A DNA stretch of 59,669 nt from assembly GCA_028706475.1 (NCBI GenBank), contig JAQWBI010000008.1, positions 1-59,669 on the forward strand, written 5' to 3'. Below, in pieces: positions 42,595 through 46,903 of the stretch (positions are counted from its first letter, which is position 1; each line of letters begins with the position of its first letter). The position numbers and the translations under genes are program-made. Under the pieces are notes generated by a model that saw nothing but the letters and a program-made list of their open reading frames with translations, had not been told where the DNA came from and did no database searches. This stretch comes from Candidatus Cloacimonadota bacterium. Its GTDB lineage: Bacteria; Cloacimonadota; Cloacimonadia; Cloacimonadales; Cloacimonadaceae.

Positions 42595-43650
42595 TTAGAA
42601 ACCGGCACCCGTGGCAAAGAGTTTGGGATTTTCCGCCACTTCTTCGGCCACTGTACGTTCCACGTAGTTGTTCATTACCAGATTGTAAAGAGATTGATCT
42701 CTGGTTTGCATACCTTCCTTGGTAGAGGCTTGAATGATGGAGGGTATCTGGTAGGTCTTTTCTTCGCGAATCAGGTTTCTCACGGCGGCGTTAGCCAGCA
42801 TAATTTCCACTGCGGGCACGCGGCCTTTGCCGTCTTTTGTGGGTAACAGGGTTTGTGAGATCACTGCTTCCAGAGATTCCGAAAGCATGGAGCGCACTTG
42901 TTGCTGTTGCTCCTTGGGGAACATATCGATGATACGGTCTATGGATTTGGTGCAGCTTCCGGTATGCAGCGTGGCAAAAACCAAGTGACCGGTTTCTGCA
43001 GCTGTCAACGCAAGTGACACAGTCTCCAGATCGCGCATTTCACCTACCAGGATTACGTCCGGGTCTTCACGTAAGGCACTGCGAAGCGCCGCGGTGAAGC
43101 TCCAAGTATCGTGGCCCAACTCACGTTGGTTGATCAGGCTGTTTTTGCTGCGATGTACGAATTCGATGGGGTCTTCCACTGTAATAATATGGCAGTATCT
43201 ACTGTCGTTGATACTGTCGATCATTGTAGCTAAAGTGGTAGATTTGCCGCTTCCGGTGGGCCCAGTAACCAGTATAAGTCCCTTTTCCTTTTTTGTAAGG
43301 CGTTTGAGAATCTCGGGTAGGCGTAGCTCATCGTAACTCTTGATTTCGTTTGGAATCACGCGGAAAGCAGCAGAAATACCGTTTATCTGATGGAATGCAT
43401 TTACACGGAAGCGAACATCGTTTGAAAGCTTTGTGGAAAAGTCGATTTCCAGATTCTTTCTAAACATCTCCTGTTGCACTTCGTTCATCACTCCATCTAC
43501 GAGATTCTCAACATCTTCCAAATTTAGGACCGGAAGGTTGAGTTTTTTCATTCTACCGTTGACTCGCACCATGGGGTGCGAGCCTACGGCAACATGAAGG
43601 TCAGACGCTCCCGCCTCGGCGGTGAAGCGTAATAGTTCATGAATTGTCAA
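42595..43650 (-). CDS. pilT: Type IV pilus retraction ATPase PilT
   Basis: The 351-residue protein has the PilT layout: a PAS-like N-terminal domain (about 1-100), Walker A GPTGSGKST at 130-138, an Asp box, the Walker B/His box HLVFATLHTGS, and the C-terminal PilT signature AVISQTLLP. It powers pilus retraction and twitching. The start codon is TTG, since 43648-43650 reads CAA on the plus strand, with GGGAGG 8 bases before it. The N-terminus TIHELLRFTAEAGASDLHV matches the family. It starts 18 bases after pilA. Confidence 0.96.
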   Translation of the reverse strand: MTIHELLRFTAEAGASDLHVAVGSHPMVRVNGRMKKLNLPVLNLEDVENLVDGVMNEVQQEMFRKNLEIDFSTKLSNDVRFRVNAFHQINGISAAFRVIPNEIKSYDELRLPEILKRLTKKEKGLILVTGPTGSGKSTTLATMIDSINDSRYCHIITVEDPIEFVHRSKNSLINQRELGHDTWSFTAALRSALREDPDVILVGEMRDLETVSLALTAAETGHLVFATLHTGSCTKSIDRIIDMFPKEQQQQVRSMLSESLEAVISQTLLPTKDGKGRVPAVEIMLANAAVRNLIREEKTYQIPSIIQASTKEGMQTRDQSLYNLVMNNYVERTVAEEVAENPKLFATGAGF

Positions 43651-43668: not shown

Positions 43669-44106
43669 TTAGTCGGCTTCCATTCCTCCGGACTCAGGGT
43701 TTGTCCAGGTATCGATTCCATAGCCGTGGAATTGAGCTTCCACTACGTCGTAAATCACTTGTTTGCCTTCACCACCAGCGAAGTCCTGTAAGGATGTTGC
43801 GACATACTGACGGGGCGGATTACCAGTTACTTCAAACTTCCAGTTCTTCAGAGTGGATACACCAATGTTGGCATCTTTGAGAGCTTCATCAATGGAGTAG
43901 CCATCGGTGGAACCAGTGGTTTGCAGATGAATATCGAAGGCCTTGCGGAGTGTTGATATTGCAGTCTGTGCTTCTGTGCTGCGGGATTTTTCAACATAAC
44001 GCAAGTAACGCGGAACGGCGATAGCAGCCAAGATGGCAACTATGATAACCACCACCAACACTTCGATAAGGGTAAAACCCTTTTGGTTTTTCAGGTTTCT
44101 GAGCAT
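43669..44106 (-). CDS. pilA: Major type IV pilin
   Basis: The 145-residue protein has the classical leader and cleavage site, QKG|FTLIEVLVVVIIVAILAAIAVPRY, with G10, F11 and Glu15 (mature Glu5). The long N-terminal helix is followed by a small globular head (about 40-145). AGGAGG lies 9 bases before the ATG, and a sigma-54-type promoter (44170-44153) gives a leader of about 37 bases. It is the first gene of the pilus cluster. No cysteine pair is present in the head. Conceivably it is a major pseudopilin, but pilT next to it favours pilin. Confidence 0.93.
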   Translation of the reverse strand: MLRNLKNQKGFTLIEVLVVVIIVAILAAIAVPRYLRYVEKSRSTEAQTAISTLRKAFDIHLQTTGSTDGYSIDEALKDANIGVSTLKNWKFEVTGNPPRQYVATSLQDFAGGEGKQVIYDVVEAQFHGYGIDTWTNPESGGMEAD

Positions 44107-44152
44107 TTTTGTATCCTCCTAGGGGATCGTTTTATTTCTTGCCAATCTATAT

Positions 44153-44170
44153 ATGCACGATGCGTGCCAA
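44153..44170 (-). promoter_or_regulatory. Sigma-54 (RpoN) promoter upstream of pilA
   Basis: On the minus strand, TTGGCACGCATCGTGCAT (44170-44153) has the -24 GG and -12 GC exactly 10 bases apart, with TGGCACG in the consensus form. The predicted start is near 44143, 37 bases before the pilA ATG. Pilin genes in several phyla are known to use RpoN with a PilR-type activator; no such regulator is in the window. Confidence 0.7.
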
Positions 44171-44325
44171 AAATCAGTGAAAAGAAACTCATCAGTGCAT
44201 CAGAACAAGGCGTAAATTCACTTTTTCCCAATTCATTATATTTGTCAATCTCTATTTATCCGTATCGTTTCCCTTCCATTGATTTGGTGGTGATCTGTAG
44301 CAATTCGTGAACAAATTCTTCAGGG

Positions 44326-44535
44326 TCTAGGGGACTATCCACATTAACCCAAATAATGCCCTAAGTTCAAAATACCTATGCTTTCTGTCTCTGTTAATAT
44401 AAGAAATGGGGTGACCTGGACTTCGGGCAATACATAGAATCCACCCCCGATATTGAACTCTATTTAATATATAACATTTAGGTATACAATAAGATACATA
44501 AGACCAAATGAACCCCAATCGCATTATCCAAGATA
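44326..44535 (+). repeat. Dispersed repeat family B, copy 3
   Basis: This copy extends further upstream than B1. Its GGGGACTA, AATGCCCT and AGTTCAA blocks match copy 4. It continues with CTATGCTTTCTGTCTCTG, GAAATGGGGTG and GGACTTCGGGCAATACATAG, and ends AGACCAAATGAACC. The hairpin arms are partly degraded. A4 begins within about 10 bases of its end. Confidence 0.8.
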
Positions 44536-44540
44536 AATGG

Positions 44541-44645
44541 TCAGTGCTTCGTCTTGATATGAAGCAGATATCATCGGGTGATCATCGAGTGGTCACTGCT
44601 TGATAACGGCTTGATATCTGTTTCAGCACTGCTTGAAATAATGAG
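44541..44645 (-). repeat. Dispersed palindromic repeat family A, copy 4 (inverted)
   Basis: The core at 44561-44623 reads, on the minus strand, from GAAACAGATATCAAGCCG through CACTCGATGATCACCCG to ATGATATCTGCTTC. These are the clearest family A inverted ends. The outer side at 44624-44645 (GAATGAATGGCAAGC) resembles the GAATGAATAGCACGC end of other copies. Confidence 0.8.
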
Positions 44646-44854
44646 AATGAATGGCAAGCGAGCATTCAACCGACAAAGACATAGCCGCAACAGAATTTAT
44701 TGTGCAGTGAAAACCCATGCATGCAGGTAATAAGAATCAAATGCTCTGCATTTTTGTACCGATAAAACTATAAACAAAAGGCTTGACGCATTTTGTGACT
44801 TTGAGTTTGTGTCATTATTCAAACATAATTACTGATAAAAATGAAGGAGCCAGA

Positions 44855-46903
44855 ATGTCATCATCCTTACAGAAACTACTATTATGCAGCCTGACATTAC
44901 TACTATCCGCAATGCTAGGCGCGGTTGAGATCAGTCCCACAGCAGTTACCAATTCCAATTTGTTGGACGACCGCGATATCCTTGCTGAATATGACGGTGG
45001 CCAAATACTACGCGCAGATATCATGGCTAGGATAGAAAAAATCCCTGCTGTACACCGTGGTCGTTTTCTCACAACGGATGGCCAGCTTCAAATCTTGGAC
45101 ATCATCAGTACCGAAGATGTTTTCTACAGGAAAGCTCTGGAAATGGGCATCGATAAGAGTCCGGAAGTGACCGAAAAGTTAGCTGAACTCCAGCGCAATT
45201 TTTACTTGCAGGAGTATTACAAACGCCACGTTACCGATCTGGTAGTACTCGATGAAGAAGATTATCAAGAGTTCTACAACGACAATCTCCAGCTCTTCTA
45301 TCAAAGCCCCAATATCACCATCCACTACATTCAAACTGCTACAGAAGAAGATGCAATCGCCGCTATCGCCGAGCTGAATGCCGGCGCATCTTTTGCCCAA
45401 GTATCGGATAAATACAATCAAAACACTTACGCCAAGGGACTGAAAGGCGTGATAAAACACATCACCCTCAATGGCAACATCCCTGGCGTGGGGAACGATC
45501 AGGCCCTGGAAGATGCTATTGCCGAAAGCACCGTAGATTCCCTGAAGATCAACGGCCCCATCCAAACCGATATGGGTTGGCATCTGTTTCGCACAGTGAA
45601 CCGCATTCCCGGTCGTCAAAGAGAACTCAGCGAAGTAAGAACCGAAGTGGAACAGCGCCTACGTCCTAAAAAAGAAAGAGAAGTCCTGGAAAGCCTGCGC
45701 GCCCAATTGAAGGAAAAATACCATGTCTCCATCGATACCACCTTGGTGAATCGCATCGACCTGACTGAATTGGCCAAAAACGACGAGATTAAAGACCTGA
45801 TAGCAGTGAGTTCACCCCACAACGACATCAGAGATATCAGAGTAAAAGAATTCTTGGCGGATTATTCCAAGCGCAGTCCTCAAGAACAGCTTTATTACGC
45901 CCGCGGTGGCGGTCCCATGGCCTTGATGGAACAAAACCTGATCCAGGAACTATTTGTAATAGATGGAAAAGCCCTCGGTTACGAACGCTATTTCGAAAAT
46001 AACGAAAATTACCTGATGCTGCGTCGCAACACTATCTTGCGCCGAGCTTTTGAAATCCTGGTATTGGAAACCATAGAGGTTAGCAATGAAGAAATAGCCG
46101 AACGCTACGAACTGGACAAAGAAGAATACTCCATGCCTGCTCATCGCTCTATCCAAGTGCTCTTCTTTGAAGATAATAAAACTGCAAAGAAAGCCTGGAG
46201 CAAGTTCAATAAAGCGCTCAAGAAAAATAATGAAAAAGACATCGAAAAGATCATCAGCAAATACTCTACAAAACCCCAGAAATCCATCTACGAAAACCAA
46301 TATGACAACGGTATCGTAACAGGATTGGTGCAGGATGCGGATTTCTCGAAACGCATTTGGGACAATCCCGTAGGCTACCTGTCACCCGTATTCACCACCG
46401 CCAATGGCGACATCGTGTTCTTCCGCACTTTGTCCGAGACGCCAAAGAGCTATCGCCCCGCAGTAGAAGTGGAGCCCCGCATCTTGAAGGCCATCAAGCA
46501 GGAAAAGGAAAGAGAGACACAGGAACGTGTAAAAGAAGAACTCTTTGTGCAGTACAACATGAGGAAATACCCAGAGAGAGTGAAACTGACACTTACTGCG
46601 GATGAGCTTTTCGAATATGCCGATAATGCCGCCAGAAACCGCAACTTCAAGGATGCCACAGTGTTCTTTGATCAGATCATCAAGACTTACAACAACGGTG
46701 TAGATGATTATAAAGCCTTCTTTATGAAAGCTTTCCTCACTTCCGAAGAGATCAAGGATACGGATGAAGCCCTGAAGCTTTTCCGTGAGTTCCTCACTCG
46801 CTATCCGGAAGGGGAGTTACATGAATCTGCCCGCTTTATGATCGACAGTCTGGAAGGAAATCTGGATGGCTTTGAAGATTTCGAAAACCTTGAAGATGAA
46901 TAA
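44855..46903 (+). CDS. Periplasmic peptidyl-prolyl isomerase / chaperone (parvulin type, SurA/PrsA-like)
   Basis: This is 682 residues from the ATG at 44855, with AAGGAG 7 bases upstream; a start at 44783 would add 24 unlikely residues. A signal peptide (about 1-24, LSAMLGA) is followed by a SurA-like N-terminal helical part (about 40-150) and a PpiC/parvulin domain (about 151-255, with DMGWHLFRTVNRI). A helical linker, a second weaker parvulin-like domain (about 428-535) and a TPR-like C-terminus (about 585-675) complete it. Such proteins help fold outer-membrane proteins. The single-gene unit ends in a good terminator. Confidence 0.88.
   Translation: MSSSLQKLLLCSLTLLLSAMLGAVEISPTAVTNSNLLDDRDILAEYDGGQILRADIMARIEKIPAVHRGRFLTTDGQLQILDIISTEDVFYRKALEMGIDKSPEVTEKLAELQRNFYLQEYYKRHVTDLVVLDEEDYQEFYNDNLQLFYQSPNITIHYIQTATEEDAIAAIAELNAGASFAQVSDKYNQNTYAKGLKGVIKHITLNGNIPGVGNDQALEDAIAESTVDSLKINGPIQTDMGWHLFRTVNRIPGRQRELSEVRTEVEQRLRPKKEREVLESLRAQLKEKYHVSIDTTLVNRIDLTELAKNDEIKDLIAVSSPHNDIRDIRVKEFLADYSKRSPQEQLYYARGGGPMALMEQNLIQELFVIDGKALGYERYFENNENYLMLRRNTILRRAFEILVLETIEVSNEEIAERYELDKEEYSMPAHRSIQVLFFEDNKTAKKAWSKFNKALKKNNEKDIEKIISKYSTKPQKSIYENQYDNGIVTGLVQDADFSKRIWDNPVGYLSPVFTTANGDIVFFRTLSETPKSYRPAVEVEPRILKAIKQEKERETQERVKEELFVQYNMRKYPERVKLTLTADELFEYADNAARNRNFKDATVFFDQIIKTYNNGVDDYKAFFMKAFLTSEEIKDTDEALKLFREFLTRYPEGELHESARFMIDSLEGNLDGFEDFENLEDE

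Follow-up and report, generated by a model that had tools for sequence, protein, structure and literature searches.

We propose that the 18-mer TTGGCACGCATCGTGCAT, at positions 44170-44153 on the minus strand of a Candidatus Cloacimonadota contig, serves as the -24/-12 element of a sigma-54 promoter for the major pilin gene pilA, a reading to which, on comparison of the sequences of related loci, we give a probability of about 0.92. The window, by which we mean the whole stretch of DNA analysed here (59,669 nucleotides), is contig C8 of a metagenome-assembled genome (MAG) of 2.06 Mb that is 97% complete. The activator of this promoter is probably not the PilR known from other bacteria, and we put forward another kind of protein as a candidate.

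The pilA locus and its promoter

The candidate major type IV pilin gene pilA (43669..44106, minus strand; open reading frame and domain match) encodes 145 amino acids with an N_methyl (prepilin N-methylation) domain. Directly 3' of it lies a pilT-like retraction ATPase gene (42595..43650, minus strand; open reading frame and domain match), which is probably transcribed together with pilA from the sigma-54 promoter. On the other side, a 748-bp intergenic region separates pilA from a divergent peptidyl-prolyl isomerase gene (44855..46903, plus strand; open reading frame and domain match), the ATG of which is at 44855 and the reading frame of which is listed from a TTG at 44783.

Within TTGGCACGCATCGTGCAT, ten bases lie between the GG at 44168-44167 and the GC at 44156-44155, which is the exact GG-N10-GC spacing that the first-pass annotation had read on the minus strand. 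The same annotation had called the -24 box near-consensus; the -24 half, TTGGCACG, has no mismatch to the published consensus YTGGCACG-4bp-TTGCW (quoted in PMC2725144), and the sole mismatch to the TGGCAC/TTGCW context in the whole site falls in the -12 half, which is GTGCA where the consensus has TTGCA. The element scores 24 of 25 and the runner-up within 330 nt only 17.5, in agreement with the earlier statement that there is no second candidate nearby; a score of at least 24 was reached in 2 of 20000 dinucleotide shuffles of pilA's own upstream segment. The start of transcription is predicted from the element at 44143 (minus strand), which places it about 12 nt downstream of the -12 C (44155). 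The distance of 37 bases to the ATG given previously thus holds for the predicted leader (about 37 nt) and not for the element itself, which ends 46 nt before the pilA ATG at 44106.

The leader has a feature of its own. The pilA Shine-Dalgarno sequence AGGAGG (44120-44115, minus strand) is covered by a small hairpin (44113..44127, minus strand), recognised by comparison of leaders, in which ATCC at 44127-44124 pairs with GGAT at 44116-44113. Throughout family f1 this mini-hairpin has the form X-UCC...AGGA-GGA-Y; its UCC is present in 39 of the 42 pilA leaders and missing in genus g9, and the closing pair X-Y is complementary in 31 of these 39 (A-T in 13, T-A in 17). Mean folding support is modest (0.60 versus 0.51 in shuffles), and an Rfam search of the window gave no match. 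Since X and Y are complementary with both A-T and T-A, the comparison suggests translational control of pilA.

Conservation across the Cloacimonadota

Judged by PilT, the nearest named relatives are three MAG contigs (75-76% identity), of which one carries the label Armatimonadota and the others that of Candidatus Cloacimonadota; taxonomy places the Cloacimonadota in the FCB group. Of the phylum's 124 genomes, 97 gave a PilT match, and the pilT loci of 90 of these were examined, leaving out seven (G029, G121, G065, G002, G059, G054 and G087) with a partial PilT match or a position near a contig end. In 88 of these 90 loci pilA lies directly upstream of pilT; the two loci without pilA (G007 and G058) are both short (2721 and 910 bases). 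GG-N10-GC recurs in 86 of the 88 loci at the same place upstream of pilA, at a distance of 74 to 110 nt from the conserved GF(T/S)L codon, and a score of at least 20 is attained in 80 of the 88 (versus 0.7% of shuffles). The element-less pilA loci are those of G104, a genome that is 64% complete, and of G115, which belongs to another family of the class.

Among the 86 element-bearing loci the GG and the GC are invariant (2.5-3 bits per column), the 30 columns upstream carry less than 0.3 bit each, and the columns computed downstream carry at most about 0.5 bit, a value attained in an A-rich stretch before the Shine-Dalgarno sequence. Between the element and the ribosome-binding site, and upstream of the element, this column-information analysis revealed no further conserved promoter box. 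Within the window's genus the upstream flanks are unalignable; the element, the leader and the Shine-Dalgarno sequence are alignable. Judged from these alignments, the pattern is that expected of a promoter under selection: because the element is kept in 86 of 88 loci amid unalignable flanks and stands alone as a conserved box ahead of the ribosome-binding site, the pilA promoter is under selection and very probably sigma-54 dependent. The element occurs in the window's own family and in eight further families of its order, and by this distribution the link between sigma-54 and pilA is old within the Cloacimonadota.

Conservation also bears on the choice between this reading and two others. 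One is that the resemblance is due to chance and that a housekeeping sigma factor transcribes pilA. Matches to TGGCAYN6TGCW are frequent in the genome (42, versus 7 in the reversed-pattern control) and in the single-contig relative G001 of 2,246,820 bases (26 versus 3), and they mostly overlap open reading frames: 28 of the 30 loci read in the window's own genome overlap one of at least 100 amino acids, as do most of the 26 in G001, by a mechanical criterion that counts antisense reading frames too. The sequence of a site alone is therefore not decisive; conservation is. The pilA site is among the two free of such overlap, and its position-specific conservation in 86 of 88 loci, together with the shuffles, rules out a chance match; this reading as a whole we regard as very improbable indeed. 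Nor does a sigma-70 promoter recommend itself, since sigma-70-like matches on both strands of 44050-44900 are at chance level (3 found, 3.4 expected).

The other reading takes the 18-mer for an operator: a dimeric regulator would bind the palindrome GCAC-N5-GTGC (window 44167-44155, minus strand), and pilA would be transcribed with another sigma factor. The palindrome is indeed present in 35 of 42 members of family f1, and in none of the 44 other site-bearing loci; it arises there because the -12 half reads GTGC rather than TTGC, the opening T being replaced by G in 39 of the 42 members. Other families keep GG-N10-GC without the palindrome, the palindrome's inner positions 7 and 11 show no covariation, and upstream of pilA there is no other conserved promoter box. 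With the palindrome specific to one family and GG-N10-GC not, we reject the operator as a substitute for the promoter and consider it improbable, if somewhat less so than chance.

Three further matches to the pattern, all with TTGC, precede a gene with a Shine-Dalgarno sequence. At L204:207-695 (minus strand, contig C14), an ORF-free TTGGCACGACTCTTGCAT precedes the gene for a 162-residue protein with a hydrophobic, pilin-like N-terminus, the first 70 residues of which have no Pfam match. The L195 protein is by eye a PDZ-containing outer-membrane-like protein, its site overlapping a reading frame of 484 amino acids, and the L247 protein of G001 is by eye a secreted peptidase-like protein with a site free of reading frames. 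As suggestions from pattern matching, these three sites fit the published link between sigma-54 and the cell exterior (PMC3162934).

Sigma-54 and the activators encoded in the genome

The first-pass annotation had named the absence of rpoN as a finding that would count against its proposal. The genome encodes a complete RpoN with activator-interacting, core-binding and DNA-binding domains (domain scan), which scores 344.8 bits against the TIGR02395 rpoN_sigma equivalog model (cut-off 277.35). Across the phylum a Sigma54_DBD match was found in 117 of 124 genomes, and rpoN in 82 of the 86 promoter-bearing genomes (it was not found in four). Taken with the conservation of the element, this supports the original suggestion of a sigma-54 promoter for a pilin gene in a distant phylum. 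RpoN-polymerase would wait at the pilA element in a closed complex until an enhancer-binding protein (EBP), powered by ATP, opened it, which would make pilin synthesis an on/off switch; transcription of pilA would then depend on RpoN and start about 12 nt downstream of the element.

A profile search found five proteins with a strong Sigma54_activat domain in the genome, encoded on contigs C1, C4, C7, C22 and C37; two more matches were left out as weak (E 3e-4). As had been stated, the regulator is not in the window, where the only match is weak (C8:54695-55051, E 3e-4). The contact loop is GAFTGA in C1 and C4, GSFTGA in C22, GAFTDA in C7 and GSFTSA in C37 (C7 and C37 read from printed sequences), so that the genome has at least one EBP combining an AAA+ domain and a GAFTGA-type loop. 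A P-loop regular expression matched C1 and C37 only; by eye, C22, C4 and C7 vary from it.

The PilR-like activator implied by the first-pass annotation is not borne out. No PilR-type gene lies beside pilA, either in the 36-52 kb part of the window or in the Sigma54_activat search of the whole window, and no REC-AAA+-HTH EBP of this genome is common to all promoter-bearing relatives. Neither of the two kinases scanned gave a call for a PilS-type domain, and inspection of the EBP neighbourhoods fetched revealed no pil genes. A response regulator could nonetheless drive the promoter as in PilS-PilR, for example the NtrC-like pair on C1 (L010:7920-10423). EBPs of this type do exist in the window's genome; the C1 regulator has a REC domain, an AAA+ domain with intact GAFTGA and a Fis-type HTH and is immediately preceded by a kinase gene, and genome G023 has the promoter and the C4 regulator without the TPR-type EBP described below.

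Against this stand the phylogenetic profiles. The raw profiles give C1 in 82 of 124 genomes at 1e-100, C4 in 41 of 124 at 1e-90 and C7 in 80 of 124 at 1e-90. Presence lists were then made by hand, with low-identity rows removed as paralogues (C1: G062, G098; C4: G035, G036, G046, G050, G052, G071, G076, G077; C7: G050, G062, G075). By this hand-made tally 55, 27 and 52 of the 86 genomes with the promoter have the C1, C4 and C7 regulators, respectively, the count for C7 being generous because rows of 41-43% were kept. The regulators are absent, in the same order, from 10, 13 and 9 promoter-bearing genomes that are at least 98% complete, and the single-contig G001 lacks all three. The profiles rule out C1, C4 and C7 as the common activator of the family; that one of them acts on pilA in the window's genome alone is possible, and a two-component activator on the whole appears unlikely, with perhaps a quarter of the weight.

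A candidate activator of the one-component type

Our own candidate for the pilA activator, with roughly an even chance of being the right one, is a one-component protein of the architecture AAA16-TPR-GAF-AAA+-Fis whose gene lies on contig C22 (L011:137-4414); it would act on the promoter from an enhancer site. It has about 1430 residues and Pfam matches to AAA_16, TPR repeats, Sigma54_activat and HTH_8, and its G001 orthologue also matches GAF weakly; the GSFTGA loop is present in all eight copies of this type that were read. Since no receiver domain was called, the protein would be a one-component sensor.

At 1e-130 the profile search recovered the C22 type from 95 of 124 genomes, none of them in families f12 and f13. 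After 30 genomes had been rechecked with the C-terminal part of the protein (G000 serving as control), it is present in 80 of the 86 genomes that carry the promoter. It was not found in G034, G012, G013, G023, G045 and G095. A universal gene would be expected to escape detection in about 8.7 of the 86 through incompleteness alone, and rpoN itself is missed in four, but G023 is 99% complete. The genomes of G104 and G115, where pilA lacks the element, also lack the C22-type protein. This co-occurrence fits a role of the C22 type as the activator and is not independent evidence for it, because the presence of the protein follows phylogeny. Nine genomes have the C22 type and no PilT match (G006, G016, G021, G043, G067, G071, G081, G082 and G084), G016 among them being 99% complete, and pilA is therefore not its only possible target.

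The smallest genomes offer a further argument. Seven small relatives (G001, G015, G016, G019, G020, G027 and G032) hold only two kinds of EBP, the C22 type and the shorter C37 type; six of them have pilA with the element, and the seventh, G016, has no PilT match. The shorter protein is REC-AAA+ where scanned (G001). Loop readings for the C37 type cover four genomes: the loop is GSFTSA in G000 and G001, and a GAFTGA-like core is missing from the proteins of G019 and G020. The C37 type, although retained in minimal genomes, is rejected as the activator on account of this loop, and in G001, G019 and G020 no EBP other than the C22 type has a GAFTGA-type loop. The argument depends on the assumption that an EBP with a degenerate loop is inactive. 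Separately, we note that L014:9885-11426 (minus strand) and its relatives L223, L227 and L228 encode a conserved EBP-family protein with a degenerate contact loop (GSFTSA or no such motif).

The enhancer is the weakest part of the proposed mechanism. Any enhancer would sit in the intergenic region between pilA and the isomerase gene, and comparison of the flanks in the window's genus revealed no shared activator-binding site upstream of pilA. Dyad counting against mononucleotide shuffles yielded TGGACA-N6-CGTCAAG, an inverted repeat at a fixed 63-64 nt upstream of the -24 box. Of the 42 family members, 17 have it with at least 11 of 13 positions matching, all of them in genera g4, g7 and g8 (for instance L126 and L136), and none of the 11 members of the window's genus does; it also occurs in G023, which is without the C22-type protein. 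It may be a candidate enhancer, or part of the promoter of the divergent gene.

Discussion

Sigma-54 control of a type IV pilin is known mainly from proteobacterial and delta-type groups. In Pseudomonas and Myxococcus, pilA is under sigma-54 control through PilS-PilR. The Cloacimonadota resemble these in having a major pilin under apparent sigma-54 control and differ in that the response-regulator EBPs of the genome analysed here are not common to all promoter-bearing relatives and in that neither kinase scanned, of two, yielded a PilS domain. In Geobacter sulfurreducens, pilA depends on RpoN and PilR, and its -24/-12 element, with the reported consensus TTGGCACGGTTTTTGCT, is supported by 5'-RACE (PMC2725144). 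The likeness lies in a pilin gene preceded by such an element. However, pilR is immediately upstream of pilA in G. sulfurreducens, whereas here the neighbour is the divergent peptidyl-prolyl isomerase gene and no EBP, and the -12 of the element is GTGC, unlike that of G. sulfurreducens (PMC2725144). The best models for the C-terminal part of the C22 protein, with its AAA+ domain and Fis-type HTH, are the one-component EBPs NifA and NorR; the protein falls below the curated cut-offs for both, and differs from them in its N-terminal AAA_16, its TPR array, the weak GAF match of the G001 orthologue and its length.

As a kind of system, sigma-54 control of pilin is thus already known; the phylum is new for it in the literature searched, and the activator is probably new to that literature too. 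A survey of 842 genomes linked sigma-54 with flagella and pili across phyla; its main text contains none of the terms pilA, type IV, Cloacimonas or Cloacamonas, and no promoter-level claim for the Cloacimonadota was found in it (PMC3162934). Our literature search, with subscription papers outside its scope, found no paper on sigma-54 or RpoN control in the Cloacimonadota, the few hits appearing unrelated from their titles and opening lines.

Taken as a whole, the scheme is one in which the main order of the Cloacimonadota switches its pilin on through sigma-54 without PilS-PilR, a single one-component activator combining an ATPase-TPR-GAF sensor part and a NifA-like AAA+ domain turning on pilA; we hold this tentatively, at a little under even odds. 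If it is true, the most reduced genomes would have no working sigma-54 activator besides the C22 type, and the sigma-54 regulon there would therefore be one pilus-and-surface programme with one input. The small genomes with two activator-family proteins, one of them with a broken loop, leave few candidates and may offer a simple model of a sigma-54 regulon. Sigma-54 control of the pilin is very probably fixed in a little-cultured anaerobic phylum of the FCB group, and there it seems uncoupled from PilR.
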